Assembly (NCBI GenBank): GCA_011391125.1
Contig: JAABRE010000050.1
Location: forward strand, 1-36,876
DNA: 36,876 bases
Direction: 5' to 3'
Origin: Synechococcales cyanobacterium S06
Lineage (GTDB): Bacteria > Cyanobacteriota > Cyanobacteriia > Cyanobacteriales > JAABRE01
Below, piece by piece: positions 325-36,332 of the stretch (positions are counted from its first letter, which is position 1; every line of letters starts with the position of its first letter). A model generated the notes under the pieces. It was not told the DNA's origin, made no database searches, and saw only the letters and a list, made by a program, of their open reading frames with translations. Made by a program: the position numbers and the translations under genes.

Positions 325-849
325 TCAATGCGTAAGTCCTATATTAGTTAATCCAATTAAATTAGTAACTCCTGTTTTAATTGCGGTGAAAAAACCCTTA
401 TATTCAATTTCTTTTTGATTTACATAGCCAAAATACCAATCAAGAAAACCAGGATCCACTTTTGTTATTAAGTCATCTACCCAAGTTTGTAACTCTTGTT
501 CCGCATAATTTTTCGTATTTTCATTGGCGGTTTGGAGACCATTTTTTATGGCTTCATCTACTTTATTCCAGTCGGGAGATTTAACTTGTATGGTGACTTC
601 TCTTTTTTCTGGAGGGGGCGCATTGAAAGATTTTGCAATAACTAATTGTCCGACCAAGGGAATAATGACAATAACTACTACTAGCGCCCAAAGCCAAGGA
701 GCAAAGGATTTCAGCACATTCGCAATCGAATTGAGTAAACCACTCCAAGCGTTAATTCGTTCAGTTGACTCTTGAGCGCTAGTAGGTTCAACTTTTACTG
801 AATTCTCAGTCTTTTCTTCCGTTAAGTCTGTATTATCCTTTTTATTCAT
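325..849 (-). CDS. Membrane-anchored hypothetical protein, C-terminus truncated by an IS
   Basis: A 174-residue protein with a charged, Thr/Glu-rich N-terminus (about 1-45), one clear transmembrane helix (about 52-74, WLWALVVVIVIIPLVGQLVI) and a soluble region with a long polar helix (about 90-130), followed by FLDWYFGYVNQ. I do not recognise a named family. The last residues (GLTH) and the stop are encoded by what looks like the terminal inverted repeat of the neighbouring insertion sequence (GCGTAAGTCC on the plus strand at 330-339). The original protein was therefore probably longer and lost its C-terminus when the element inserted. Whether the truncated product works is unknown. Confidence 0.6.
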   Translation of the reverse strand: MNKKDNTDLTEEKTENSVKVEPTSAQESTERINAWSGLLNSIANVLKSFAPWLWALVVVIVIIPLVGQLVIAKSFNAPPPEKREVTIQVKSPDWNKVDEAIKNGLQTANENTKNYAEQELQTWVDDLITKVDPGFLDWYFGYVNQKEIEYKGFFTAIKTGVTNLIGLTNIGLTH

Positions 850-4125: not shown

Positions 4126-5478
4126 TTATGGCAGCACGAGAGGCGCAACAACAACCTTAACATATTCCTTAAATACTCGAATTAAATCAAAATTGCCCTT
4201 TATATGTATTAATAAAAACCGTAATTTTAGGGATTTTAAACTATTAATTAAATCCCAAGATGAAAGATTTAAAGAATTTTTTAATTCTTCTTTTGATAAA
4301 GGTTTATTTGACGTACTTATGGCTAAGATTACCTCCTTTTCTTGGGGAGATAAACGGTTATATAGGAGTGCGAGCATCCTGCTCGCTTCTGTAGTCAGAA
4401 TTGAAGTATTTTCGGCTAAAAAATCCTTAACTTTACCGTCATAAAAATCCTTTATTAAACTAGCAATTTCCTGTAAATAAACGGGATTACCCCAATATAA
4501 ATTAACTAAATTTAACCAGCATTCTTCATCTTGTAAACCAAGATTTTTCAGAATCTCAATAGTATTTAATCCGCCTAATTCTAGACCATCTACCTCTAAA
4601 TTTTCGTTTAACATTTCTGAACATTGTTCCTGACTAATTAAAATTAAATTACTTTGATGTTCCGTCGTTTTAATTCTGGTAAATAATTCTTGATACTCTT
4701 TATATTCTGGTTTAAATTGTCCCGCAAATTGACCACTAATAAATAATTCTTCGACATTATCAAAGATGATTAAACATTTTTTACTTTGTAATAAGTTTAA
4801 AAAGTTTTCTCTACTTGAAGTTTTGATTAAATTAGTAGTTTTTAACTGTTCATTCGCTAAAATCTCGGTAATAAATTCACCTAAACAATTAGATAATTGC
4901 AAATCTTTCCAAATAATTACCTCAAATTTATCTAAATTTAAGTCGATAAATCTTTTAACTAAATAAGTTTTACCAATTCCACTTAATCCTAATACCGAAA
5001 TTAAGGGAATATTTTTATTTAAAATAAAATCAGATAATTGGTCAAGTTCGGAATGGCGATCAAAAAAACGAGTAATTTTCGGGGCGAATTTTAAATTATG
5101 ATAACAGGAATTAGTAATATTATTTTTATCAGTTTCTTGACTATTTTGAGGAGAATTATAAAGATTTTGTGAACCAAAATTAAAAATACTACAATTATTT
5201 TGACAAGAGTCAGAAGACTTAATATTTAACCTTTCTAAACTAGAACGAAAATTAGACTTTTTTAGATCTTCTCCCAATTCCTCCGATAAAATTTGCCATA
5301 ATTGATAACCGACATCACTAATATGGTTTTTACTGACAAAACATTTTTTAGCAATATCATCATAAGTTTGTTTTTGCCAACTCCCCTCAATCACAGCAGT
5401 TTGAACATCATCTAAATGTTTACCCGTGCGATCAAAAACCAACTTATCGACAAATTGTAAAACTTCATTTACATTCAT
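4126..5478 (-). CDS. STAND (NB-ARC type) NTPase with N-terminal VMAP-type HTH, paralogue 1
   Basis: A 450-residue protein. The N-terminal about 85 residues (VNEVLQFVDKLVF ... YDDIAKKCFVSKNHISDV) form the helix-turn-helix-like domain seen at the N-terminus of many cyanobacterial NB-ARC/VMAP-type proteins. A linker follows, then an NB-ARC ATPase with Walker A LGLSGIGKTYLVKRF (about 155-170) and Walker B KKCLIIFDNVEELF, and a winged-helix-like region (LSPQEKEVILAIST). It ends soon after, without the WD40 or TPR sensor that longer members carry. The start is set at the fourth codon of the open frame (MNVNEVLQ) by alignment with the paralogue at 28861-30180. STAND proteins are signalling switches; members act in bacterial defence, but no effector is visible here. 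Confidence 0.85.
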   Translation of the reverse strand: MNVNEVLQFVDKLVFDRTGKHLDDVQTAVIEGSWQKQTYDDIAKKCFVSKNHISDVGYQLWQILSEELGEDLKKSNFRSSLERLNIKSSDSCQNNCSIFNFGSQNLYNSPQNSQETDKNNITNSCYHNLKFAPKITRFFDRHSELDQLSDFILNKNIPLISVLGLSGIGKTYLVKRFIDLNLDKFEVIIWKDLQLSNCLGEFITEILANEQLKTTNLIKTSSRENFLNLLQSKKCLIIFDNVEELFISGQFAGQFKPEYKEYQELFTRIKTTEHQSNLILISQEQCSEMLNENLEVDGLELGGLNTIEILKNLGLQDEECWLNLVNLYWGNPVYLQEIASLIKDFYDGKVKDFLAENTSILTTEASRMLALLYNRLSPQEKEVILAISTSNKPLSKEELKNSLNLSSWDLINSLKSLKLRFLLIHIKGNFDLIRVFKEYVKVVVAPLVLP

Positions 5479-5721
5479 AAAAACCATACATAGTAAAACT
5501 TTCAGTCATTATAACTAAAATTGAGCCAATTTTTTCCGTATTTTTCCGAATATTTCGGCAAAAAATTCCCGTTAAAATCAGGTTTTTTTAACTAGCTAAA
5601 CTACTCAAATTTTTGGGATTATAGTCAGAGAAAAAATTTTTTGCAAAAAAATTTCTGAGATTCTGCATAAACTCCGAAAGTCATCGGGATATAGAAATAG
5701 AATAATTCACAATTAACTATG

Positions 5722-6009
5722 ATGTCGTACTCAAATACAGCAGAAACAATTGACAGAAAGGTTACGAATACCGAATGCAGCTTTTTAACCTTAGCGAAAT
5801 TCGGTCAAACCGGCACAGAACATCATTAGCTTGGTGCGTCACACAAATAATTTGTCTGTTTCATTTTTATTCTGTCAAGGTGACGCACCCTACCATTATG
5901 ATAATTTACGACAAGGGGGCCATCCCACTACCCGTGTAAAAATTGCGGTCATCAAATTATTTGTTTGATAAAACCAAGAGAGTGTGATGTTTGTACCGGC
6001 AAAGAATAG
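5722..6009 (+). pseudogene. Small Cys-rich gene interrupted by a hairpin repeat
   Basis: An open frame from ATG 5722 (35 codons, MSYSNTAETIDRKV...) stops at TAG in the left part of a GGTGCGTCAC hairpin element. On the far side the same frame reopens at 5905 and runs to TAG 6007-6009, encoding HYPCKNCGHQIICLIKPR and then ECDVCTGKE. The second half has four cysteines as two CxxC pairs, the layout of a zinc ribbon. Both halves lie in frame 1, and the stops between them lie in or beside the inserted repeat. I read this as one small zinc-ribbon gene of roughly 65-70 codons broken by insertion. I do not recognise the family, and the two halves might be unrelated. Confidence 0.45.
5833..5889. repeat. 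Hairpin element family C (GGTGCGTCAC type), copy in the Cys-rich gene
   Basis: GGTGCGTCAC (5833-5842) and its exact reverse complement GTGACGCACC (5880-5889) enclose a T-rich spacer containing TTTCATTTTTATTCTGTC. The same unit recurs at 7321-7377 and 8376-8432, and its right half at 36287-36332. Flanks to about 5910 (CCATTATGATAATTTA) are also shared. Confidence 0.75.
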
Positions 6010-6054
6010 ACCATATTAGCTACAAGTAAACCAATTAATTCAGGAGATGAATCT

Positions 6055-6486
6055 ATGGCTATCGATAAAGATATATTTTCTTCACTAAAATTCCGCCTTA
6101 CTATCGAGAATTATTGCCAAACTTTGGGCTGGAGTATTTACAGTATAGATAATAAAGTGGCGACTCTTAGGTTTAATATGAAGTCTGGAAATACACAAAC
6201 TTTATTTATTATTAAATTTGATTCCACCCTTGAATTTTCTTGTCCCACAGGCTTTAAATTCAACAATATCGCTGATATACCTCATAGTTTATCTACATTA
6301 CTTTTGATGGAAAATAAGAAGTATAAATGGGGCTTTTGGTGTTTAGAGCAAATTAACAATAAACAAGTTTTTTCGATTATGCATAACGCCGAAATGAGTT
6401 TAATTGATATTAATTATTTCTATAAAGTTGTTATTCAGCTAGTAGAAGAATGTGAAAAATTTGAACAAGTTTTAGAAAGTTTATAG
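6055..6486 (+). CDS. Hypothetical protein, possibly of YbjN/chaperone-like fold
   Basis: A 143-residue soluble acidic protein with a good ribosome binding site (AGGAGATGA about 5 bases before the ATG). It alternates strands and helices: an N-terminal helix (DIFSSLKFRLTIENYCQTLG), strands WSIYSIDNKVATLRFNM and QTLFIIKFD, a central loop with CPTGFKF, and a long C-terminal helix (YKVVIQLVEECEKFEQVLESL). That order resembles YbjN- or type III chaperone-like folds, but I recognise no specific family. It follows the broken Cys-rich gene by 45 bases and may once have been its operon partner. No signal peptide or membrane segment is seen. Confidence 0.65.
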   Translation: MAIDKDIFSSLKFRLTIENYCQTLGWSIYSIDNKVATLRFNMKSGNTQTLFIIKFDSTLEFSCPTGFKFNNIADIPHSLSTLLLMENKKYKWGFWCLEQINNKQVFSIMHNAEMSLIDINYFYKVVIQLVEECEKFEQVLESL

Positions 6487-6500
6487 AACTTTCAGTAAAG

Positions 6501-6580
6501 TAGGGTGTGTCAGACAAACCAATTATTAGTTAAAATAATTAACTGAAAAAATCTGACACACCCCTGAGAATAGTTAGCTT
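6501..6580. repeat. Hairpin element family C, left module only
   Basis: GGGTGTGTCAGA (6503-6514) and TCTGACACACCC (6552-6563) are perfect inverted repeats around AATTATTAGTTAAAATAATT. The trailing TAGTTAGCTT is shared with the copies at 7241 and 8296, but the second GGTGCGTCAC module is absent here. It sits between two convergent genes and could act as a bidirectional terminator. Confidence 0.75.
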
Positions 6581-6618
6581 AATCTGCCTTTTAATCTGAT
6601 ATATTTTTACCCGTTAAA

Positions 6619-7002
6619 TTATAAATTATCCAAAGCTGAAATCAAATTTAAGTGAGTAACAAAGGGAATAAAATCTCGATCAGAAAAGAGAAGTGGAAGA
6701 TTATTCTCTATACAAAAAGTCGCAATAATGACATCATTAGTTTTTCTAATTGTGATACCTTTTTTGCGTAATTTACGATAATTTTCTGCACTTTTGATCG
6801 CTAAATTTACACCCAATAAATCATAAATGGTTAATGAAGTCAGCAAACTTTTAGCAGTTTGATAATCTTGATCATTTCTGAATCCTTGTAACACTTCCGT
6901 CAGAATAATATCACCAATTACAACAGGTTTTACTCCCAAACATAAATCTAATTTAACAGTTTCCGGTGTATTTTTACCATTAAAATAATCAATTCCTTTC
7001 AC
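6619..7002 (-). pseudogene. vapC: VapC-type PIN toxin with frameshifted N-terminus
   Basis: The open frame gives 127 residues from GTG 7002 and contains most of a VapC PIN RNase: IDYFNGK, the Glu motif in TEVLQGFRND, TNDVIIATFCIEN and FSDRDF. The first catalytic Asp is missing. On the minus strand just upstream, a different frame encodes LVDSS, exactly where VapC proteins have LVDSSVWIDYFNG, so a one-base indel between VDSS and IDYFNG seems to have split the gene. Without the first Asp the metal site should be incomplete, so the toxin is probably inactive unless the indel is a sequencing error. The gene overlaps the vapB stop by one base. Confidence 0.7.
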
Positions 7003-7205
7003 TAGAATCCACTAAAAGAGTCTAACCTCATTTCATCAAGATTACCCTCCCACCGTAATTTACCTTTAAATTGTTTAATTTGCTCCTGTTTTTTGAGACT
7101 AATCAAAGTTTTTAACCCCAATTCAATCACGTCTTGTTCTGTTTTTAAACCAGTCACTTCTAAGGCTTCACTTATTAATTGATTATCAATAACAAAAGTA
7201 GTCAT
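7002..7205 (-). CDS. vapB: VapB-type antitoxin
   Basis: A 67-residue protein of the DUF2191/VapB type: TTFVIDNQLISEALEVTGLKTEQDVIELGLKTLI forms a ribbon-helix-helix-like start. The C-terminal GKLRWEGNLDEMRLD is the segment that usually inserts into the PIN groove of the cognate toxin. Such antitoxins bind their own promoter and block the VapC RNase. The gene is directly followed by vapC, which carries a frame break, so the antitoxin may be a solitary survivor. It is bracketed by family C hairpin elements on both sides of the pair. Confidence 0.8.
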   Translation of the reverse strand: MTTFVIDNQLISEALEVTGLKTEQDVIELGLKTLISLKKQEQIKQFKGKLRWEGNLDEMRLDSFSGF

Positions 7206-7240
7206 AGTTATAAATCCTATTTTTCTTAGTTAACAGTTAG

Positions 7241-7379
7241 TAGGGTGTGTCAGACCGAGCAATTATTAGTTAAAATAATTAACTGAAAAAATCTGACGCA
7301 CCCCCTAGAATAGTTAGCTTGGTGCGTCACACAGATAAGTTAGCGGTTTCATTTTTATTTTGTCTATGTGACGCACCCT
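7241..7379. repeat. Hairpin element family C, full two-module copy
   Basis: Module 1 is GGGTGTGTCAGA (7243-7254) with TCTGACGCACCC (7292-7303). Module 2 is GGTGCGTCAC (7321-7330) with GTGACGCACC (7368-7377). TAGTTAGCTT joins the two. The outer ends of the compound unit are also inverted (AGGGTG...CACCCT), so the whole could move as one MITE. The copy at 8296 is almost identical. Confidence 0.8.
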
Positions 7380-7447
7380 ACCATTATGATAGTTTATGAG
7401 GGGCGATCGCCTTTTGCCACCTTATAATTTTTAGTTAATATTTATTA

Positions 7448-7855
7448 TTAATTCTGTTTCCATACTGATATTAACATTACTTCAAAATGACGATCATAAG
7501 TCCAAACTGGATAATTTAAACGCTGAGAAATACTTGCAGTTACAGCATCAAATAAAGTAATTTTTTGATCAGAATATTGCTTAACTTTTTGCCATGCCAA
7601 ATTATAATCTTCTTCAGTGGGATGAATTAAATCCGCAGAATCTCTAATTTCTTCAAAAAATTTAATCGCTGTTTGAATCCCTAGACGATATAAAACTAAA
7701 CTATAGGATTCTAACACAATGGGATAAGGAATAATAACCCGTCTATTTAATTTTTGAATTGTTGATAATTCTTGTCTCGCTTTTTGATAATATTGATCGC
7801 TCGGATCAACCAAAGCATAAAGAGGTGTCGTATCCGCAATAATCGCTTTAACCAT
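7448..7855 (-). CDS. PIN-domain RNase toxin
   Basis: A 135-residue PIN protein with all expected acidic positions: AIIADTTPLYALVD (first Asp, D8), the Glu in PYPIVLESYSLVL, Asp in KITLFDAVTASIS and the last Asp in VWTYDRHFEVM. PIN toxins are Mg-dependent RNases. The start codon overlaps the stop of the upstream 82-residue gene by one base, the usual layout of an antitoxin-toxin pair. Unlike the neighbouring VapC, this copy looks intact. Its RNA target cannot be read from sequence. Confidence 0.85.
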   Translation of the reverse strand: MVKAIIADTTPLYALVDPSDQYYQKARQELSTIQKLNRRVIIPYPIVLESYSLVLYRLGIQTAIKFFEEIRDSADLIHPTEEDYNLAWQKVKQYSDQKITLFDAVTASISQRLNYPVWTYDRHFEVMLISVWKQN

Positions 7856-8103
7856 TATTCATTTAATAAGCTATTTACAAATATTTGATCATGATTAATG
7901 GCCGTATCATCAGCTCCACTTCCCGACTCAGCAGGAGTAATATTAAAAGGTTTTTTATTAGTAACTAAAGTATTAAATTTAGTTGATTCGGGAAGCTTAG
8001 AAAACGAAATTTCTTGGCTTAATTGTTGAAACAACCAGCGCTTATCTTCCACCGATAACTGTTTAATTTTTTGAGCAAATTCCTGCACTTCTAAAGATAG
8101 CAT
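7855..8103 (-). CDS. Small protein paired with the PIN toxin, probable antitoxin
   Basis: An 82-residue protein. The N-terminal about 35 residues (LEVQEFAQKIKQLSVEDKRWLFQQLSQEI) form amphipathic helices of the kind seen in small cyanobacterial antitoxins. The C-terminal half is polar and probably disordered (PAESGSGADDTAINHDQIF), as in antitoxin neutralising tails. I do not recognise a DNA-binding motif. The antitoxin role rests on its position directly upstream of, and overlapping, the PIN gene. Confidence 0.65.
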   Translation of the reverse strand: MLSLEVQEFAQKIKQLSVEDKRWLFQQLSQEISFSKLPESTKFNTLVTNKKPFNITPAESGSGADDTAINHDQIFVNSLLNE

Positions 8104-8147
8104 AATTAATTACTACAAAGATTGATAAAACTCGATAATTATAGCAT

Positions 8148-8290
8148 TTTTTACAAGAGATGGTAAAGGGAGAAATTCTGATCGTATTTTATTTACGATT
8201 TTAGAAAATCAAGAATTACCTATAGTTCGCATTTTACCTATTAGACATTCATCACAATCAACATTAGGAGAAAATTTAGATTATGATTAA
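8148..8290 (+). pseudogene. Remnant of a RelE/ParE-type toxin
   Basis: An open stretch without a start reads FTRDGKGRNSDRILFTILEN, then QELPIVRILPIRHSSQSTLGE to TAA 8288-8290. The pattern, a beta strand with RILF, then IVRILPIRHSSQ near the end, matches the C-terminal half of RelE/ParE-superfamily toxins. The N-terminal half is not present upstream, where the divergent 7855-8103 gene begins. It is therefore a decayed fragment, immediately followed by a family C hairpin element. Confidence 0.45.
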
Positions 8291-8296
8291 TTAAGT

Positions 8297-8435
8297 AGGG
8301 TGCGTCAGACTGAGCAATTATTAGTTAAAATAATTAACTGAAAAAATCTGACGCACCCCAGATCATAGTTAGCTTGGTGCGTCACACAAATAAGTTGTCG
8401 GTTTCATTTTTATTTTGTCTATGTGACGCACCCTA
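8297..8435. repeat. Hairpin element family C, full two-module copy
   Basis: Module 1 is GGGTGCGTCAGA (8298-8309) with TCTGACGCACCC (8347-8358). Module 2 is GGTGCGTCAC (8376-8385) with GTGACGCACC (8423-8432). It is nearly identical to 7241-7379, including the flank CATTATGATA and ATGAGGGGCG. All four arms are perfect here, so this is probably the least decayed copy. Confidence 0.8.
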
Positions 8436-8647
8436 CCATTATGATAATTTATGAGGGGCGAAATAAAGTAATAAATAAATAAATAAAAGGGATTTATTGC
8501 TCAGATAAATGTATTTCTAATGATAAACTAAAGAGTAACAAAAAACTAATTTTATGATATAGCAAAATTATCTCCTGAACTATTAGAAACAATTTTTAAT
8601 CTTCTTAAATATCTGAATTAGTTGATGATGCTACGGGAGCAGAATAT

Positions 8648-8899
8648 TTGCTTTTTGAAAGTTATTCTGAAACCGAAGAAACAATTAATTCTTTAGATGA
8701 ATTAAAAGGTGTTGCTTTAGAGGCGGCTTCTCGCTACTCTCAACTTTCTACTTTACGCTTAAGAATAGCAGAAAATCAGCCTAGTTTATCTAATAATATG
8801 CTAAAATTGCTAGAAAATATCATTAACCAAAATCAACTAAGGATTCCAGCAATGGAGCGCAGCATTGAAGAAATTAAAATTGAATGGGGTTTATTATAA
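8648..8899 (+). CDS. Hypothetical helical protein, 5' end eroded
   Basis: An 83-residue open frame beginning at a TTG, rich in helices (ALEAASRYSQLSTLRLRIAEN, MLKLLENIINQNQ). I do not recognise it. There is no ATG at the start: the frame is open back to about 8609 (SELVDDATGAEYLLFE). An upstream stretch at 8553-8621 in another frame encodes YDIAKLSPELLETIFNLL, which would join naturally to it. The gene has therefore probably lost its N-terminus through a frameshift, and translation from the TTG is uncertain. It is followed by a small gene overlapping in TAATG. Confidence 0.45.
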   Translation: MLFESYSETEETINSLDELKGVALEAASRYSQLSTLRLRIAENQPSLSNNMLKLLENIINQNQLRIPAMERSIEEIKIEWGLL

Positions 8900-27881: not shown

Positions 27882-28070
27882 TTGGATATTACTTCTAAAT
27901 TAGCGATAAATCGCAACTACAAACTTTTAAAATGTAGAAAATAACACATAATATTAAGCTAAAATTAGTTATTATTCCCTCACTCGATCCCTCCTTGTAA
28001 TTCTCCCCTTAATAAGGAGAATTAGGATCAGAGAAGATTAATTTTATAGTGGAAAAAAACTAATTTAATT

Positions 28071-28814
28071 ATGTGTCGTTTATTAGGTTATTTAGGTCCG
28101 AAAATTGAACTTGACAAAATATTATTTAAACCCGAACATTCCTTAATTGTACAAAGTTATCAACCCAAAGAAATGACATCAGGATTATTAAATGCTGATG
28201 GATTTGGTATCGGTTGGTATCACCCAGAAAAGGAAAGCAACCCCTATACTTATCGCAATATTTTGCCCATTTGGAGTGACATAAATTTAATACAATTAAG
28301 TCGTTATATTGAGTCTAATTGTATCTTAGCTTATGTGAGAAGTGCCACCCCCGGATTAGCAGTTGACCTCAGCAATTGTCAACCTTTTACTAAGGGTAAT
28401 ATTATGTTTATTCATAATGGTTTTATCGCAAATTTTCGTAATACATTATATCGACCAATTCGCAATCTTTTAGACGATACCCATTATAAATTAATCCATG
28501 GAACAACGGATTCTGAACATATTTTCGCCTTAATAATGCAGTATTTTGATATTACTAATAATCTTAAGGAAGCTGTTAAGAAAACCCTGGAAAAATTAAC
28601 GGAATTAGCAACAGAATATCACACGGAATTTTCCGCAAATATTATCATTAGTGACGGTAAAAAATGGGTTGTTTCCCGTTATGCAACTAGAAAACCTGTC
28701 CCTAGTTTATATTATTTAAAAGATGATTTATTGTATCCTGATAGCATGATTGTTGCTTCTGAACCTTTATTCGAGGGAAATTGGCACAGTTTTGACGAAA
28801 ATATTGTGATTTAG
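28071..28814 (+). CDS. Class II glutamine amidotransferase (EgtC/YafJ-like)
   Basis: A 247-residue Ntn-hydrolase. The N-terminal Cys2 (after Met removal, MCRLLGYLG) is the expected nucleophile. Conserved blocks include the [16 protein letters not shown] loop, [21 protein letters not shown] and [10 protein letters not shown]. This resembles EgtC, which releases glutamate from the hercynyl-cysteine sulfoxide intermediate in ergothioneine synthesis, and the YafJ group of unknown substrate. No egtB or egtD is in this window, so the specific role stays open. It is convergent with the second STAND gene, separated by a perfect hairpin. Confidence 0.85.
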
Positions 28815-28834
28815 AAATTGGGATGAAGAATGGA

Positions 28835-28859
28835 ATTGCTAAACAAATTGTTTAGCAAT
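28835..28859. terminator. Bidirectional hairpin between two convergent genes
   Basis: ATTGCTAAACAA, one A, then TTGTTTAGCAAT: perfect 12-bp arms. It sits between the stops of the amidotransferase (28814) and the STAND gene (28861, minus strand), where a bidirectional terminator is expected. Confidence 0.6.
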
Positions 28860-28860
28860 C

Positions 28861-30180
28861 CTAAATATTTAAAAAATTGATCACATATTCCTTAAATACA
28901 GGAATAACATCAAAATTGCCGTTTATTTGTGTTAATAAATACCGTGATTTTAGGGATTTTAAACTATTAATTAACTCTAAAGATGACAGGTTTAAATATG
29001 AGCTTAATTCTTCCCTTGAAACGGGTTTATTTAACTTATTTATAGCGCAAATTACCTCTTTTTCTTGGGGTGATAAACGATTATATAGGAGTGTGAGCAT
29101 CCTGCTCACTTCTTGAGATATAATTAGCTGATTTTCTGCTAAAAAGTTACTAACTTTACCATCATAAAACTCCTTAATTAAAACAGCAATATCTTGTAAA
29201 TAAACGGGGTTTCCTTGATATAAATTAACTAAATTTAACCAGCATTCTTCTTCTTTTAAACCCATATTTATGAGTATTTCAGTATTATTTAAACCAGATA
29301 ATTCTAAACATTTTACAGGGTATAATTCCTTGTCTAAAGAATTCATTTCGGTGCATTTTTCCTGACTAATTAAAATTAAACTACTTTGATGTTCAATTTC
29401 GGTCATCATTTTGAAGAAGTTTTGATATTCGCAAAATTCTGGTTTAAATTGTCCCGCAAATTCTCCACTTATAAATAATTCCTCCACATTATCAAAGATA
29501 ATTAAACATTTTTTATCCTTTAAAATATCAAAAAACTTACAGACATCCGATTTCTTTAAGAAATCGGATGTCTTAATATTTAAAACCTCATTAATAACCT
29601 CATCTAAACCAGATGAAAACCTGAGATTTTTCCAAATAACAACCTCAAATTGCCCTAAATTTAAGTCGATAAACCTTTTGACTAAATAACTTTTCCCCAT
29701 TCCACTTAATCCTAAGACGGAAATTAACCTAATTTGATTACATATCCAGTTATTTAAAATATTAAATTCCCCTTCCCTAGCACAACATTTAATAATTTCA
29801 GGTGCTAAAGTTAAATTTTGATAACATTGATTAATAAAATTTTTGTTTTTATTTTGAGAAAAATCTTGACTATTATTAGGACAGTGACTAATATTACCAT
29901 TAACAATATTAATAAGTTGAGAATTAACACTTCTTTCTATAGTCCAAGAAAAATTATGTTTATTAATATCTTCTTTTAAATGTTTAGATAAAATTTTATA
30001 TAACTTTCGACTTAAATCGCCAATATAACCTTCATCATAATCTTTATGTTCAGCAATTTCCTTATAACTTTCACCATTCAATAAACCTTGAACAATATTT
30101 TTCTGCAAGTCGTTTAAATGTTCATTGGTCTCCGTAAAAACTAAGGTATCGACAAATTGTAAAAATTTATTAACAGTCAT
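28861..30180 (-). CDS. STAND (NB-ARC type) NTPase with N-terminal VMAP-type HTH, paralogue 2
   Basis: A 439-residue protein built like the one at 4126-5478: N-terminal HTH-like domain (VNKFLQFVDTLVFTETNEHLNDLQ), linker, NB-ARC with Walker A LGLSGMGKSYLVKRF, Walker B KKCLIIFDNVEELF, and winged-helix segment LSPQEKEVICAIN. The ATPase and C-terminal parts are close to identical in places, while the linker has diverged. It also lacks a C-terminal repeat sensor. A dispersed palindromic repeat is embedded in its coding sequence at 29541-29573. The gene diverges from the graspetide locus with 221 bases between the starts; a functional link is possible but not shown. Confidence 0.85.
   Translation of the reverse strand: MTVNKFLQFVDTLVFTETNEHLNDLQKNIVQGLLNGESYKEIAEHKDYDEGYIGDLSRKLYKILSKHLKEDINKHNFSWTIERSVNSQLINIVNGNISHCPNNSQDFSQNKNKNFINQCYQNLTLAPEIIKCCAREGEFNILNNWICNQIRLISVLGLSGMGKSYLVKRFIDLNLGQFEVVIWKNLRFSSGLDEVINEVLNIKTSDFLKKSDVCKFFDILKDKKCLIIFDNVEELFISGEFAGQFKPEFCEYQNFFKMMTEIEHQSSLILISQEKCTEMNSLDKELYPVKCLELSGLNNTEILINMGLKEEECWLNLVNLYQGNPVYLQDIAVLIKEFYDGKVSNFLAENQLIISQEVSRMLTLLYNRLSPQEKEVICAINKLNKPVSREELSSYLNLSSLELINSLKSLKSRYLLTQINGNFDVIPVFKEYVINFLNI
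29541..29573. repeat. 33-bp palindromic repeat inside the STAND gene
   Basis: AGACATCCGATTTCTT (29541-29556) and AAGAAATCGGATGTCT (29558-29573) are perfect 16-bp arms around one T. In the minus-strand reading frame it encodes KTSDFLKKSDV. The paralogue at 4126-5478 has unrelated sequence here, so it looks like an in-frame insertion of a mobile palindrome into a coding region. Confidence 0.8.
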
Positions 30181-30401
30181 AAAACTTAGATATTATAAAG
30201 GTTTTGGTTATTATAGCTTAATTGGAAAAGGAAAAAATCAGGTATTTTCAGGTTTTTTCTTCATAAATTTTAACAAAGATCAAGTTTTTTCAGGGTTTTT
30301 TAAGGTTGCTATGTCAAAACAATAATTATAGGATTAAAGAGGATTTTAACCAAGTATTCATAATTGGTAAATCCTCAAATAATAAGAATAGGAGAAGTTA
30401 C

Positions 30402-30647
30402 ATGACAATACAAACATTAGAAAAACCGGCTAATTCTGTTCCTTTTACTCTCTGTTTCCTCGAAGAAGTACCCCAAGAGATGTATGATCAAGCGATTACA
30501 GAGTCTGAATTATTAAAATCCTCCTATAATCCTGAAACTAAAACTTCCAATATTCCCGTATATGCAGGTACGACACTCACATATCGCACTACTGGAAGTA
30601 TCCCGCTCGTAAAACCATACGAAGATTCTGAGCAAGATGACACCTAA
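30402..30647 (+). CDS. Putative graspetide precursor peptide A
   Basis: An 81-residue peptide. ATG 30402 is chosen because GGAG lies 7 bases upstream; a longer frame from 30306 has no support. The leader (about 1-50) carries VPFTLCFLEE, which resembles the PFFARFL leader helix of microviridin precursors recognised by ATP-grasp ligases, then EMYDQAITESELLKSSYNPE. The core (about 51-81) reads IPVYAGTTLTYRTTGSIP, then LVKPYEDSEQDDT. It is rich in Thr/Ser (57, 58, 60, 63, 64, 66), Lys71 and acidic residues (74, 75, 77, 79, 80), the chemistry needed for ester or amide macrocycles. It lacks the KYPSD motif. The YxGT segment parallels microviridin YGGTFKY. Peptide B downstream shares the leader almost exactly. 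Confidence 0.8.
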   Translation: MTIQTLEKPANSVPFTLCFLEEVPQEMYDQAITESELLKSSYNPETKTSNIPVYAGTTLTYRTTGSIPLVKPYEDSEQDDT

Positions 30648-30845
30648 AAGTGGTGATACTTACGTCAAGAATTAATCAGTTTCAGTCTTATTTTTAAGCT
30701 GTGATGCAATTAATTAAATATCGTTTTTATTAGAATAAATTACATTTTAACATCTGATTTATTCTAAGGTGTATCACATTTTTAAGGTAAATAAAACCCT
30801 ACTTTATTTTTGTGACGCACCTTACACTATTTATTCTTATCTAAC

Positions 30846-31814
30846 ATGATTTTAATTTTCACTAATAAACAAGATGTTCATGCCGATGAAGTTATCAGAA
30901 AATTACAGGAAAAAAATCAGTCTGTTTTTAGATTAAATTCTGAAGATTTACTACTAAAATACCAAACTAATTTTTACATAAATGAAAAAGGGTTTTGGGA
31001 TGGAGAAATTACCGATGAACTTGGCAGAATTTTAAATTTAAAAACCTTAAAAGTCGCTTGGTTAAGAAAACCAGAGTTTACCTTTTTTTCTGATCGAAAA
31101 GCTGAATCTGAATCCGAACAATTTATCGCTTCCGAAATAAATGCTCTCATTAATATCCTCTATTCTTTGCCTAACATAAAATGGATTAATGATCCATTTA
31201 TAGGTAATAGAGCTAAGGTAAAATTTCAGCAACTTTTATTTGCTAATCAACGGGGAATTAAAACTCCTAAAACCCTTATCACTAGAGATCCAGAAAAGGC
31301 AAAAGCGTTTTTTCTCGAATGTGGAGAAGAAGTTTTAATTAAAACTATTTACACAGGAAATGTAATGATAAATGGTCTGAGCCATGGGATTCCTTCCCGA
31401 AAAATTGGCAAAAATGATTTTTATAAATATTATAAAAACATTGCTTTAGCTCCTACCCAATTGCAAGAATATGTGGAAAAAGCTTTTGAATTAAGGGTGA
31501 CAATTATTGGAGAAAAAGTATTTGCTGTCAAAATCGATTCTCAATTAAATGAAGAAACAAAAATTGATTGGCGTTTACATACTAAAATGAATCCCCATTC
31601 GGTTTTTCAACTCTCTTTAAATATCGAAAAATTTTGTCTTGATTTTATCAAAGAGCAAAACCTTTTATACGGAGCAATGGATTTTATTGTTACTCCTGAA
31701 AATGAATACGTTTTCCTTGAAAATAATCCCTTTGGTCAATATCTTTGGTTAGAAATAGAAACGGGTATTCCCCTCACAGAAGAAATGAGTAATTTACTTA
31801 TAAGTTACTCATAA
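30846..31814 (+). CDS. ATP-grasp ligase of the MvdC/MvdD type (graspetide macrocyclase)
   Basis: A 322-residue ATP-grasp enzyme, the length of microviridin ligases. Family marks: an N-terminal pre-ATP-grasp domain (MILIFTNKQDVHADEVIRKL), WLRKP (72-76), LIK with ATP-binding K166, LQEYVEK (206-212), LRVTIIG, VFAVKID with K229 and D231, DWR (241-243), and the metal-binding end GAMDF (D279) ... FLENNP (E292, N294), GQYLWLE. Such enzymes activate Asp/Glu side chains with ATP and join them to Ser/Thr or Lys of a precursor core. There is one ligase here, whereas microviridin loci have two. It sits between two matching precursor genes, which strongly supports the assignment. No transporter-peptidase is next to it. 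Confidence 0.88.
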   Translation: MILIFTNKQDVHADEVIRKLQEKNQSVFRLNSEDLLLKYQTNFYINEKGFWDGEITDELGRILNLKTLKVAWLRKPEFTFFSDRKAESESEQFIASEINALINILYSLPNIKWINDPFIGNRAKVKFQQLLFANQRGIKTPKTLITRDPEKAKAFFLECGEEVLIKTIYTGNVMINGLSHGIPSRKIGKNDFYKYYKNIALAPTQLQEYVEKAFELRVTIIGEKVFAVKIDSQLNEETKIDWRLHTKMNPHSVFQLSLNIEKFCLDFIKEQNLLYGAMDFIVTPENEYVFLENNPFGQYLWLEIETGIPLTEEMSNLLISYS

Positions 31815-31919
31815 AATCAGGTGAATAAATATTAATTTTAACTGTAATTTAAGCCTCAAATTAGGTATTTTTTCACTTGATTAAGCACATTTTTAATTAT
31901 TAACAAAAAAGAGGTAATT

Positions 31920-32315
31920 ATGGCAAAAAAAACTAATTTTTCAATCAACTGGAATAGGGTTATGTGGAAGGAGACTCTATGGCTAAATTTTATGCGCGCT
32001 GTTTGTGTTAGTCCAATAATGACTATATTTTTGGCATCAAGTAATAGTGGTAGTAATAGTGATAGTTGGATATTCGGACTTATTTGGCCAATATATTATT
32101 TTATAGCTGTGCCAATACTTTTATTATTCCGTTCTTTGGTATATTGGACTGGGGGACCTTTAGCACCTCTTGTATGGATACCCGTATGTTTAATAATGAT
32201 TTCTGGGGGAGACCCGATTGTTTTTCTGATTAGCAAAATAAAACCCCAGTTAGTTCCCATTCAAGACTTTAAATTTATTAACTTTGAGATATTTATTTTT
32301 GTTGAAAAACCATAA
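31920..32315 (+). CDS. Small membrane protein within the graspetide locus
   Basis: A 131-residue protein with a good AGAGG ribosome binding site. It has three likely transmembrane helices (about 25-40, 52-72, 78-98): FMRAVCVSPIMTIFLAS, WPIYYFIAVPILLLFRSLVYW and APLVWIPVCLIMIS. A soluble tail follows (PQLVPIQDFKFINFEIFIF). A Gly/Ser-rich loop (SSNSGSNSDS) joins the first two helices. I do not recognise the family. Its location between the ligase and precursor B suggests export, immunity or membrane tethering of the peptide product, which is inference only. Confidence 0.65.
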   Translation: MAKKTNFSINWNRVMWKETLWLNFMRAVCVSPIMTIFLASSNSGSNSDSWIFGLIWPIYYFIAVPILLLFRSLVYWTGGPLAPLVWIPVCLIMISGGDPIVFLISKIKPQLVPIQDFKFINFEIFIFVEKP

Positions 32316-32501
32316 AATATGGGAAATGGGCAAGAAGAAATGATGGATTCGGATTATTAAGGGAATAGCCAAAAAATAATCCAATAATCATTCAGATTTG
32401 CCATCAACCGCCTTGCAATAAATTGACAAGGCTTATAGCTTAAATCTGCTAAAGCGATTAATCATTAAATAAATAAAATTAACACTAAAAATAGAAATCC
32501 C

Positions 32502-32747
32502 ATGATTATCAAAACAGTTGAAAAATCTAGTAATTTTGTTCCTTTTACTCTCTGTTTCCTTGAAGAAGTACCCCAAGAGATGTATGATCAAGCGATTACT
32601 GAGTCTGAATTATTAAAATCCTCCTATAACCCTGAAACTCAAACTTCCAATATTCCTCTCTATGCTGGAACATCATTAACATATGGGGACACTTATACCC
32701 CTCCCTTTCCTTTTAGTAAAGACGATGCAGTGCAAAACGACACATAA
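32502..32747 (+). CDS. Putative graspetide precursor peptide B
   Basis: An 81-residue peptide, the same length as precursor A. The leader is practically identical (VPFTLCFLEEVPQEMYDQAI ... LKSSYNPET), with about four base differences across some 120 bases. The core is IPLYAGTSLTYGDTYTPP, then FPFSKDDAVQNDT. Kept between A and B are YAGT, T60, Y61, T64, D75, Q78, D80 and the terminal T81; the rest is different, with Pro/Phe residues replacing the TGSIPLV stretch of A. The ATG is in good context but has no clear Shine-Dalgarno, unlike A, so expression may be lower or driven separately. It is expected to be a second substrate of the same ATP-grasp ligase. Confidence 0.78.
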   Translation: MIIKTVEKSSNFVPFTLCFLEEVPQEMYDQAITESELLKSSYNPETQTSNIPLYAGTSLTYGDTYTPPFPFSKDDAVQNDT

Positions 32748-32970
32748 TTACAGTATTTGTTTTTGATAGATTCTGAATTATCCTCTTGGGAATCTTATGG
32801 AGTCAAAATTTCTAATTTGTCTCATAATAATAATTGACAATAAAATATGAGTCAATAGCAATTAGGAAAAAAAGTTAAACCCATTACAGGCATATCTAAT
32901 TTTATAGATAATTCTTAATTGTATGACCTGAATAATAACAAAATAAGTTGTTAATAAATTATGTCCAATA

Positions 32971-34002
32971 ATGATAATTTCTGGCAAAAATTGTTATCTT
33001 TATTTGCAAATTCTCCAGCAAAAAACGGTAAGTTTATATCGTAATATTTTTTGGGGTTCTTCTCAATGGTTACAATACGGTGAAAAATTGAGTAATTTAG
33101 GTGATATTCAAGGAGCTTTTTTTGCTTGTGATCAAGCTCTGAAAAAGGATTCTCAAAATTATTCTGCTTGGTGTAAGAAGGGTTATTTGTTTTATCAACA
33201 GCAAGAATATGATCAGACCCTCATTAATTTTAATCAGGCTTTAAAAATTGAACCTAGTTTATATCAAATTAATCATGAAAAAGCCAAGATTTTAACTTAT
33301 CTTAAGCGTTTTGATGAGGCGATTTCTTGTTATGAACAAGCTCTTAAGTTTAAACCAGAATTAGATATTCTCTGGATTGAAAAAGCTGATCTTTTCATTA
33401 TTACACAACAATTTAAAACGGCTTTTAATTGTTATCAGGAAGCCCAAAAATTAAACTCAAATAATCCTCAACTTCAGCAAAAAATTGATTCGGTTTTGCG
33501 TCAATTGCAACTTTCGGCGGATCAATTTTTTAATCAAGGTAATGGTCTTTTTGAAAGCGGTAATTTTAGGGAAGCTCTTGTCAAATACAATCAGGCGATC
33601 GCCCATCGAGAAGATTTTGTTGATGCTTGGTATCAAAAGGGCAATTGTCTGGCTAAACTTAATTCCTTTGATGAGGCGATCGCCACCTATAACCAAACTT
33701 TGAAATTGAAACCTAATTCCAGTCTCCCTTGGGTGGGTAAAGGGGATGTTTTCGCCAGTGGGAATCGCTTTCAGGAAGCTCTCGACTGCTATGAGAAGGC
33801 TTTGAGTTTCAATTCAGGGGATCAAGAAACTTCCCTCAAACGCGATCGCATGATCGAAGAATTGCAAAAACTGGAAACCGAAGGCGAAACTTTACTTCAA
33901 CAAGCGATTAATTTAACCAATTCACAACAATATCATGAGGCAATGAAAATTTATGATCAGGCTCTCGAACTTATCAGCAAGAATCTGGTTTCAGCGTGCT
34001 AA
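32971..34002 (+). pseudogene. TPR protein, N-terminal portion of a gene with two frame breaks
   Basis: The frame encodes 343 residues with about seven tetratricopeptide repeats (WLQYGEKLSNLGDIQGAFF..., WYQKGNCLAKLNSFDEAIA..., WVGKGDVFASGNRFQEALD...). Its natural start is probably ATG 32961 in another frame (MSNNDNFWQKLLSLFANS PAK), which runs into an A6 tract at 33020-33025; with five A's it continues in frame as TVSLYRNIFWGSSQW. The 3' end is also broken: at about 33980 the frame departs from the repeat pattern and stops, while the +1 frame continues as SARIWFQRAKTLEAIA into the next ORF. TPR arrays mediate protein-protein contacts. Both breaks fit one extra base each, so sequencing error and real decay are both possible. 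Confidence 0.7.
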
Positions 34003-35362
34003 AACTTTAGAGGCGATCGCAAAGGAAGCGGACGGAGCATTAGAAGCAATTCCTTATTATGAGGATGGGATCAAGTCCCTTGCTCAATCGTTTTCCTTTA
34101 GCCAACCCCAAGACGAACATTATCAAGAATTACAATCGTTACAACAATCTTTTCCAGAAAGTTTAGCTTCCGAATATTATGGTAGGGGATTTTGCTTAAA
34201 ATTTTTAAATAAAAATGAGGAAGCTCTTATTTATTTTAATAAGGCTATAGAACAAAAAGCTGATTATGTGGATGCGTGGTTTGAACGTGCCACTGTACTA
34301 GGAATTTTAGATAGAATCGAAGAAGCACTTCTTTCTTTTAATAAAGTTTTAGAACTTGATCCCAGACACGTTAAGTCTTTAATATTCAAGGCTTTTATCT
34401 TAAGAGACGGTAAAAAGTACGAAGAAGCTCTTAAGTTACTAGATCGAGCTATTGATGTCGAACCCAATAATGCTGAAGCATGGAAAGAGAGAGGAATGGT
34501 TTTAACATATTTAGACCAAAATGAGAAAGCTCTTACTTCTTTTAATCGGGCGATCGAATGTGATCCAGATGATGCTGAAGTATGGCATTGCCGAGGTTGC
34601 TATTTTAGAATGACTGATAACTATGAGAAAGCTTTGGACGATTCACAGAAGGCGATTGATATTAATCCTGAATATGCGGATGCTTGGTACAATAAAGGTC
34701 GTGTTTTATCGGCTCTGAATCAGACTGAAGACGCAATTTTATCTATGAAAGCGACACTAGAAATTGTTCCCGAATATGTTGATGCTTGGCACTTTTTAGG
34801 TAGATTGCTGGAAGACTCTAATAAAAATGAAGAGGCTTTAGAGGCTTATGATCAAGTGATTGAGATTGATCCGAATCACTACGAAGCATGGTGCGATCGA
34901 GGGGATGTTCTCCAAACTCTCGGAAAAAAGAACGAATCCCTTCTTGCCTACGATAAAAGTATTGAAATTAACCCCGATTATGACAGGGCTTGGAGCAATA
35001 AAGGAAATGCTTTGGGAAGAATGGAAAGATATAAAGAGTCACTGAACTGTTACGACAAAGCTATTGAAATTGATCCTAATCAAGCTAATGTTTGGTTTAA
35101 TCGAGGATGTTCTTTGTACAAACTAGCAGAATTTAACGAAGAAAATCAACTGCGAATAGTTACTGAGGCTCTAAAGTCTTTTATAAAAGCAACTGAAATT
35201 GCACCAAGTTATGCTCGTGCATGGCTATTTCGGGGTGAGCTATTAGTTGATTTAGGACGATATGGGGATGCCCTAAAATGCTTTGAAACAGTCTTGGAGA
35301 TTGATCCTAATTGCGAATATGCAGAATTAGCAAGGGAATATAAACAGAAGATTTTAGGTTAA
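33953..35362 (+). pseudogene. TPR protein, C-terminal portion of the same gene
   Basis: The frame encodes 469 residues, of which the first about 10 overlap the previous ORF and are not native. About 11 tetratricopeptide repeats of 34 residues follow from about residue 60, e.g. WKERGMVLTYLDQNEKALTSFNRAIECDPDDAEV and WYNKGRVLSALNQTEDAILSM. The reading frame joins that of the preceding ORF after about 33980 (GAACTTATCAGC, one base too many). Together the two parts would give a TPR protein of around 800 residues with some 18 repeats. The ATG at 33953 has no role-supporting ribosome binding site. A free C-terminal TPR polypeptide is the alternative. Confidence 0.7.
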
Positions 35363-36286: not shown

Positions 36287-36332
36287 ATTTCATTTTTATT
36301 CTGTCAATGTGACGCACCCTACAGTAAAGTAA
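36287..36332. repeat. Right half of a family C hairpin element
   Basis: TTTCATTTTTATTCTGTCAA followed by TGTGACGCACCCTACAG matches the right half of the elements at 5833, 7321 and 8376; the GGTGCGTCAC left arm is missing. It lies directly upstream of the small antitoxin-like gene. Confidence 0.65.

Follow-up and report, generated by a model that had tools for sequence, protein, structure and literature searches.

Contig JAABRE010000050.1 of Synechococcales cyanobacterium S06 (assembly GCA_011391125.1; 36,876 nucleotides, hereafter the window) encodes an ATP-grasp ligase that is flanked by two 81-residue open reading frames (ORFs), precursors A and B, with a common leader. The best reading of this locus is that of a cyanobacterial, tgm-like group of graspetides, i.e. 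omega-ester-containing ribosomally synthesized and post-translationally modified peptides (RiPPs), under a dedicated switch. The switch would be a divergent gene encoding a protein with a helix-turn-helix (HTH) and a STAND-type ATPase domain. Taken as a whole (a tgm-like graspetide, a nested hairpin with two esters and control by the HTH-STAND protein), we regard this explanation as probable.

An earlier note on this DNA had described a putative graspetide locus at 30402-32747. Its coordinates and the four ligase motifs that it listed (WLRKP, LQEYVEK, GAMDF and FLENNP, in a protein of 322 residues) are all correct on re-reading, and the arrangement of one ATP-grasp ligase between two ORFs with a common leader is confirmed, the two ORFs being 72% identical. 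The unit is wider than that span, and we count in the divergent gene at 28861-30180 and direct repeats at 30238-30299. The locus is not a chance grouping. Six other loci (L004, L005, L007, L037, L038 and L039) hold an orthologous precursor upstream of a ligase that is 74-78% identical. Loci, genomes and contigs are given L, G and C numbers, and the features of the window locus are collected in Table 1.

The ligase and the two precursors

Ranked by NCBIfam models, the ligase scores highest with TIGR04187 (TgmB; 232.7 bits, E 5.8e-69), followed by MvdC (161 bits), MvdD (155.2 bits) and the grasp-with-spasm ligase (109.9 bits). The earlier description as MvdC/MvdD-like is thus true only broadly, in that this is a homologous ATP-grasp ligase; strictly it does not hold, because TIGR04187 scores higher. 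A ligase of the MvdC/MvdD/TgmB superfamily adjoins a small precursor, as in graspetide clusters generally. A profile made from five orthologues and compared with the PDB at E<=1e-5 found five distinct sequences, all of them ATP-grasp peptide ligases (CdnC, MdnC, AMdnB, MdnB and PruB). We also searched with an AlphaFold2 model based on 20 sequences (predicted local distance difference test score, pLDDT, 86.3). The first 32 PDB matches are chains of MdnC, CdnC, AMdnB, PruB, MdnB and PsnB, and these are followed by ArgX, LysX and RimK. Graspetide ligases top both the sequence and the fold searches, and the ligase does not fall into a non-peptide ATP-grasp family. K166, R217, R243, D279, E292 and N294 do not vary among 20 ligases; from the ATP-grasp fold we take these to be binders of ATP and Mg. 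A search of the genome (4.81 Mb in 168 contigs) found a single ligase of this kind and the two precursors, with no third precursor copy.

Precursors A and B differ unevenly along their length. Over residues 13-61 they share 134 of 147 bases (91% DNA identity), and 11 of the 49 codons differ, eight synonymously and three non-synonymously. Over residues 62-81 just 26 of 60 bases are shared (43%), and 16 of the 20 codons differ, two synonymously and 14 non-synonymously. Such a division into conserved and variable parts is as expected of a RiPP leader and core, which we take these parts to be. No trace of the duplication is seen in the flanking 200 bp of each side, where the local scores of 22 and 19 fall within the shuffled range. 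The earlier note had proposed PFTLCFL as the leader element, and this is borne out by the invariance of P14, F15, T16, L17 and F19 in five orthologues. The element fits the general graspetide leader motif Phhx(1,2)h given in the main text of Makarova 2022 (PMC8939145). Neither precursor matches a known non-RiPP family; in Pfam there is no match at E<=1 for either, and in NCBIfam precursor A has a match at the level of chance only (E 0.17).

The proposal that GT[T/S]LTY and the acidic tail form the core is supported by a conserved motif and spacing. All eight orthologous precursors fit G[TS][TS]LTYxx[TS]-x(6-10)-D-x4-D-T at the C-terminus. The loop is of six residues in one precursor, nine in four and ten in three, while both stem spacings are constant. 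Each precursor thus has a conserved leader followed by a core of Thr/Ser and Asp/Glu at fixed spacing, with two Thr/Ser and two Asp in nested positions (8/8). Because the stem spacing is constant while the loop varies in length, we predict a nested hairpin, and because T-x3-[T/S]-x(6-10)-D-x4-D is close to the two nested esters of fuscimiditide, we predict that both cross-links are esters. In fuscimiditide the inner Thr7-Asp18 and outer Thr3-Asp22 esters are both made by one ligase, and that ligase tolerates loops of many lengths (PMC12291112). The two Asp residues are separated by x3 in fuscimiditide (PMC12291112) and by x4 in the window-type core, where the ring pairing is predicted only. 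There is no Lys at a fixed position in the core, and the suggestion of the earlier note that one ligase implies one linkage chemistry is therefore plausible.

A graspetide with another pattern of rings is possible, though we think it doubtful. T57 and S58 of GTSL, or the additional acidic residues E74, D74 and D79, might take part, so that there would be three esters or the residues would pair otherwise. The G[TS][TS]L segment is indeed conserved, an acidic residue lies directly before D75 in seven of eight tails, and several T/S and D/E residues are present in the related families. Yet it is T60, [TS]64, D75 and D80 that keep a fixed stem spacing in 8/8 precursors around a variable loop, and in L039 the inner position offers just one acidic residue. 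We therefore retain the hairpin with two nested esters as the predicted product.

A further feature is a Y[DN]PxxQ hinge that appears between leader and core and is common to related cyanobacterial families. The earlier note had overlooked it, along with the distant kinship to TgmA/TgmB, the divergent HTH-STAND gene and the 10-bp repeats. In an alignment of 21 precursors of several such families (the L050 row without its first Met) four positions never vary: P in the leader, Y and P in the hinge and a C-terminal D; the hinge Q is present in at least 90%, and precursor B has it. The ligases of L041-L050 came from a search by ligase similarity, and a weak hit with the orthologue profile first pointed to their precursors. 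These precursors revealed the hinge, which then served to list other loci, so that its presence in the later loci is by choice. The families concerned are 'PFAM' (L041 and L044-L046), 'PI[AG]ML' (L042, L043 and L047) and 'PLMMH' (L048-L050 and L062-L072). Like the window they have the hinge, a divergent HTH gene and usually 10-bp repeats, but their ligases are only 26-38% identical to that of the window and their cores differ. The PLMMH-type loci have a short HTH protein, unlike the 439-residue HTH-STAND protein of the window. A quick tree of the ligases (80 rows) joins those of the microviridins in one branch of 46 rows (Shimodaira-Hasegawa-like approximate likelihood ratio test 99), of which 42 belong to loci whose precursor is of the PFFARFL type; all 27 hinge-bearing rows lie outside this branch. 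The tree omitted L040, and its long-branch rows L078 and L056 make the deeper joins unsafe.

A strict five-sequence precursor profile found matches in only four of 386 genomes across the phylum. L004 is a Tychonema bourrellyi record, and its very stretch is also in genome G328. In G001 and in one of the two G178 loci the precursor profile match is limited to the second half, from the hinge onward. L006, from a Chloroflexota metagenome-assembled genome, has a 69% identical ligase and lies at the end of a contig, where the GC content is about 40% and changes to 54-69% after 2 kb; it is either a transfer or a chimera. L040 (G055) has at about 8069-8695 the remnant of a ligase, 78% identical over residues 113-321 and with one internal stop; its precursor was not found there, and by eye the flanking genes resemble those of non-ribosomal peptide and polyketide synthases. 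In L042, L043 and L047 an extra ORF of 188-198 residues lies between the hinge-bearing precursor and the ligase. The L042 copy, the one scanned, is GNAT-like by a weak Pfam match below cut-off, and acetylation of the product is possible.

The divergent HTH-STAND gene and the promoter repeats

The protein encoded at 28861-30180 has an N-terminal HTH, a P-loop and an NB-ARC-type fold. Its score with Pfam NB-ARC is 20.8 bits, below the cut-off of 23.5; the cut-off is reached by the corresponding proteins of L038, L039 and L055 and by a second HTH-STAND copy in the window. The best matches in a fold search are plant NLR resistosomes and CED-4, with 8bob (negative regulation of the maltose system) at rank 50. 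The combination of an NB-ARC-type P-loop fold with a predicted DNA-binding domain is that of a STAND regulator.

The position of this gene is strongly associated with the hinge-bearing precursors. An HTH profile was built from 18 aligned proteins and then run on longer loci. With a hinge-bearing precursor, 25 of 27 loci have a divergent HTH gene directly upstream of it, against none of 33 other graspetide loci, 22 of which have a PFFARFL-type precursor. The two exceptions are L037, which has a 797-residue protein with LuxR-type HTH, STAND and TPR parts, and L077, which starts at a contig end. The count left out the placeholder regions L076 and L081 (10 bases) and short duplicate loci. L042 and L043, both among the 27, are a close pair, and the 33 contain the remnant L040 and the contig-end ligases L006, L069 and L073, without which the figure is 0/29. 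For those loci fetched after the HTH alignment had been made, the gene is present in nine of ten hinge-bearing loci (the tenth being L077) and in none of 28 others. A Fisher test on 9/9 against 0/28 gives 8e-9, a value that overstates the association because related loci are not independent.

The HTH-STAND gene and the precursor share a promoter that contains direct repeats with a period of 10 bp. Summed over 19 promoters, the lag score is 122 at lag 10 and 54 at lag 20, with no other lag between 6 and 30 exceeding 14. The sum left out the near-copies L053, L043 and L039, and L063, L064 and L072 were scored apart. Taken singly, 22 of 25 promoters (20/22 and 2/3) have p<0.05 against dinucleotide shuffles. 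By comparison 21 microviridin promoters (from 22 loci, L075 having no usable start) have a flatter lag profile, with scores of 30 at lag 7 and 28 at lag 10. The repeat units vary with the subfamily of the regulator: TCAGGTWTTT in the window, TTCCGTATTT in L042 and L043, TCCCACTTTA in L041, similar units in the orthologues of the window locus, and TTCGACTTTA in the short-HTH loci. G178 and G268 each have two such loci, with different repeat units, which is the expectation for insulated regulator-operator pairs. In the 4.81-Mb genome the window pattern is found exactly only at its two source places and nowhere else with one or two mismatches; with three mismatches there are 20 matches against 12 for a reversed control. 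L037, with its LuxR-type regulator, has a long inverted repeat (by eye) instead of the 10-bp repeats.

The HTH-STAND protein could instead be an immunity or effector partner, not a transcription regulator. As in conflict systems of the NLR type, the peptide would then bind, inhibit or trigger it. We consider this unlikely. It is true that CED-4 and the plant NLRs have this NB-ARC fold and that the gene pairing is strict, and the L037 protein matches two PADLOC models of CARF proteins (over its first 79 residues, best 9e-9), although this may be due to a shared HTH only. No PADLOC model matches the window protein, however, nor the ligase. In 11 of the 25 loci (L048-L050, L062-L068 and L071) the frame is just 159-189 residues long; the short partners that were read, those of L048-L050, retain the HTH and lack the nucleoside triphosphatase (NTPase) domain, so that DNA binding is the constant part of the partner. 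The frame in L072 is cut by the contig end. Moreover, the repeats sit in the shared promoter, and at other sites, too, repeats accompany HTH-STAND genes whose neighbours are unrelated.

The association might also be an accident of lineage, in which a member of a large family of local regulators was carried along with one ancestral cluster and its function lost. Many HTH-STAND paralogues are present per genome, the L046 copy is split into two frames, and loci within a subgroup are related, so the 25 of 27 are not independent events. Yet we think this explanation improbable, since the HTH arrangement is kept in four ligase subgroups of the tree. Identity to the window copy is 66% and 58% for two paralogues of its own genome and 45-46% for the copies of L042, L043 and L047, but just 28-30% for those beside the orthologous clusters, and in L037 a different, LuxR-STAND-TPR protein occupies the place. 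Apparently, therefore, the regulator gene was exchanged and another took its position.

The HTH-STAND family has matches in 38 of 40 related genomes, with ten in the genome of the window. Elsewhere its genes stand divergent to other genes, partly with repeats (L104, L107, L115 and others), so that the graspetide would be one of several cargoes of a local switch. At L104 4676-5443 (own genome, C111) a paralogue is divergent to a 172-residue ORF with a bacteriocin-like leader, LSSEELEQIEGE, and a glycine-rich tail, with TAAAACCCAC-type repeats between the two. In L107 the divergent neighbour is a glycine-rich ORF of 71 residues and in L115 an AAA-type ATPase, these names being a reading of the sequences. 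The second HTH-STAND gene of the window (4126-5487, minus strand) is 58% identical to that at 28861-30180, with no graspetide genes beside it. Next to it, at 5530-5600, 10-bp-like repeats of TTCCGTATTT and TTCCGAATAT are seen by eye, followed by a 36-residue ORF (5719-5829) that may be a cargo, either lost or not recognised. In cyanobacteria, sigma-70-type proteins that have NB-ARC as an accessory domain have been noted in passages of a sigma-factor survey (PMC11119718) that make no link to RiPPs.

Proposed mechanism and relation to known systems

We propose the following mechanism. The single ligase would bind the PFTLCFL element of A and B and phosphorylate the two conserved Asp of the C-terminal tail, which the two conserved Thr/Ser hydroxyls would then attack. 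The predicted product is a nested hairpin with inner T64-D75 and outer T60-D80 esters and a 10-residue loop. The hinge would space the leader from the core and may mark the region of cleavage. With one leader and differing tails, A and B could give two products from one enzyme. The divergent HTH-STAND protein would bind the 10-bp repeats of the shared promoter as an ATP-dependent oligomer and activate the precursor gene on sensing a signal. For the esters and their pairing, the binding of the regulator, activation and its signal, as for cleavage and export, we infer the function; the genes and their families, the conserved and variable parts of the precursors, the core spacing, the gene association and the repeats are observed by computation.

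Several observations weigh against this proposal. The ligase falls below the curated cut-off of every graspetide model, and none of the curated RiPP models matches A or B. The division of the precursors is not clean at the border of leader and core, because the conserved block of residues 13-61 reaches beyond leader and hinge into the core, whose first part, GT[TS]LTY, it includes, and because the N-terminal end has diverged too (25 of 36 bases shared over residues 1-12). At the hinge Q position precursor A has K. No protease, exporter or protein isoaspartyl methyltransferase gene was recognised in a scan of the cluster. The HTH-STAND family has at least 42 members in one genome (G036) and many other neighbours, and is therefore not graspetide-specific. 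The lag score was devised after the repeats had been seen by eye, and among 22 promoters lag 10 is best in 16, lag 20 in four, and lags 19 and 30 in one each. In L045 (p 0.075) and L046 (p 0.159) the repeats are not significant alone, and in L072 the HTH gene is present with the 10-bp repeats undetected. Repeats are also absent upstream of precursor B, where the lag-10 score is 0, and control of B by the same repeats was rejected. Lastly, five of the 21 microviridin promoters have p<0.05 at lag 10. Repeats in one promoter thus prove little, and the weight of this evidence lies in the summed lag profile and the shared units.

Among known systems the nearest kin are the actinobacterial tgm systems, or graspimiditides (TgmA TIGR04186, TgmB TIGR04187; fuscimiditide and amycolimiditide), with which we read the whole system as distantly related. 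The ligase scores highest with TIGR04187, but its 232.7 bits do not reach the cut-off of 350. A and B have no match to TIGR04186 at E<=1, and among 21 related precursors just three give a weak match (best E 0.018); a genome search with this model says nothing on absence, because it was silent in the genome of the window and equally in 14 control genomes. Five annotated TgmA proteins of Streptomyces and Nocardiopsis (actinobacterial plasmids) have a PW[GA] leader element in four cases and D-P-x-x-Q at the place of the hinge in three, and like the window-type precursors their tails are rich in T/S and D/E after that place. Alignment by hhalign of 21 cyanobacterial precursors with these five gives a weak match (P 6.8e-5, probability 63.5%), and that of the eight orthologues gives P 0.0038 and probability 8.8%. 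Unlike the tgm systems, the window cluster has no isoaspartyl methyltransferase among the eight proteins of 28071-35362 in an NCBIfam scan, with related loci inspected by eye and the rest of the genome not searched for one. With the curated cut-offs missed and no methyltransferase in the scanned cluster, full tgm membership was rejected.

Membership of the microviridins was also rejected. These (group 1; MvdC/MvdD, MdnB/MdnC) share the homologous ligase fold and a P-F-h-h type of leader, but they employ two ligases, for ester and amide, whereas the whole genome of the window has one. They have a PFFARFL leader and a KYPSD core (of the TxKYPSD type that we take to be their mark); the window has neither, nor any PFFARFL-type frame, and the 22 PFFARFL-type loci are without HTH-STAND. 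The ligase lies outside the microviridin branch. The placement in the earlier note of a graspetide outside the KYPSD class is thus upheld by the ligase family and fold, the ligase tree, the conserved and variable parts of A and B and the orthologous loci. Among the microviridin loci, L099 and L100 have 10 and 5 PFFARFL-type precursor frames, respectively.

Other comparisons are more distant. In the main text of Makarova 2022 (PMC8939145) the motif of the candidate phyla radiation branch 1 graspetides, TxxxTx(6-10)Dx(1-4)D, covers the window-type core where position 64 is Thr (7/8); those graspetides are from other phyla, and their neighbours there are TPR and cluster-23 genes, not HTH-STAND. 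Graspetide groups 11 and 13 have DUF397/DUF5753 genes according to the main text of PMC13097080, and in their place the window has the HTH-STAND gene. The regulators MalT and SARP-LAL have a DNA-binding domain and an NB-ARC-like NTPase as in the window protein, and SARP-LAL binds heptameric direct repeats (PMC5930380). In the window protein, however, the HTH is N-terminal, a long C-terminal repeat sensor is missing from its total of 439 residues, and the DNA repeats have a period of 10 bp. The graspetide class is known; compared with the main texts of surveys, as distinct from the lists of published groups 1-43 and of the 174 families of Makarova 2022, the core and the regulation of this group look new. 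Among the open-access papers searched there was no co-mention of NB-ARC with graspetide or with microviridin, though the link may have been reported elsewhere, and NB-ARC is unmentioned in the main texts of two graspetide surveys (PMC8939145, PMC13097080). That the ligase is a RimK/LysX-type tail-adding enzyme and no macrocyclase, with unrelated small ORFs, is most improbable: TIGR00768 (RimK family) does match (3e-9), but 196 bits below TIGR04187, graspetide ligases come ahead of RimK in the fold search, precursor and ligase occur together in the orthologous loci, and A and B have their conserved and variable parts.

The tgm-like graspetide with its HTH-STAND switch would add a set of cyanobacterial graspetides outside the microviridins, with a predictable two-ester hairpin and one enzyme serving two cores, so that one co-expression would suffice to test the chemistry. 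Its close association with an NLR-like ATPase that has a DNA-binding domain, and with operator-like 10-bp repeats, would offer a handle on the trigger of a cyanobacterial RiPP, and the regulator with its repeats a search route to further ones. More speculatively, and with a low probability in our view, the graspetide and the NLR-like protein might form one signalling or threat-response module. The ATPase would sense the mature peptide (autoinduction, pheromone-like) or a sign of attack, form a resistosome-like oligomer bound to the DNA of the 10-bp repeats and turn on the cross-linked peptide. If that were so, related HTH-STAND genes would drive other peptides likewise, e.g. the bacteriocin-like ORFs in L104 and L107.

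Coordinates and neighbouring features

Table 1. Positions of the features of the locus in the window, with the evidence for each
Feature	Position	Strand	Evidence or remark
Predicted regulator, HTH and NB-ARC (STAND), 439 residues	28861..30180	-	Divergent to precursor A; HTH/P-loop alignment, fold search
First 10-bp direct-repeat pair, TCAGGTATTT and TCAGGTTTTT, predicted operator	30238..30257		Lag-10 score 4, p 0.004 for the promoter
Second repeat pair, TCAAGTTTTT and TCAGGGTTTT, predicted operator	30280..30299		Lag score, genome pattern search
Precursor A, 81 residues	30402..30647	+	ORF, orthologues, A/B codon comparison
Putative leader recognition element PFTLCFL, precursor A residues 14-20	30441..30461	+	Orthologue invariance, Phhx(1,2)h motif
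Hinge YNPETK, precursor A residues 42-47	30525..30542	+	Alignment of 21 precursors
Predicted core of precursor A, GTTLTYRTTGSIPLVKPYEDSEQDDT, residues 56-81	30567..30644	+	T-x3-[TS]-x(6-10)-D-x4-D motif, 8/8 orthologous precursors
Hairpin repeat between precursor A and ligase	30768..30821		z -5.8; family repeated elsewhere in window
ATP-grasp graspetide synthetase, 322 residues	30846..31814	+	TIGR04187, PDB relatives, invariant residues
Membrane protein, 131 residues, three candidate membrane segments	31920..32315	+	Hydrophobic ORF
Precursor B, 81 residues, predicted core GTSLTYGDTYTPPFPFSKDDAVQNDT	32502..32747	+	PFTLCFL leader as in A, tail differs; no 10-bp repeats upstream

The start of precursor A is the ATG at 30402; the mechanical ORF opens earlier, with a TTG at 30306. 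The earlier note had included the membrane protein in the locus. Its three candidate membrane segments stand, but its membership of the unit does not: neither BLAST against the ORFs of related loci (E<=1e-3) nor Pfam gave a match. It was therefore dropped as a conserved part of the cluster, and a role in export or immunity is a guess. Another membrane ORF, of 174 residues at 325-849 (minus strand), resembles by eye a 352-residue protein that lies 3' of the ligase in two orthologous loci, L053 (8483-9541) and L038 (5949-7007). It is 30 kb distant from the cluster, unlike the arrangement in L053 and L038.

Rfam gave no matches across 28000-33000. Between 30181 and 32900 there are no terminator-like sites, and the 18 promoter-like sites are not above shuffled sequences (mean 13.7, sd 4.3). 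The hairpin between precursor A and the ligase may reduce read-through, and we do not consider it essential. It belongs to a family with GGTGYGTCASAC ends, like miniature inverted-repeat transposable elements or repetitive extragenic palindromes, that has 19 matches in the window against 1.5 expected; its other sites lie at 5833-8432 and 36307-36318. Beside the cluster, at 28071-28814, the window encodes an EgtC-like amidotransferase (ergothioneine biosynthesis model TIGR03442, 307 bits).

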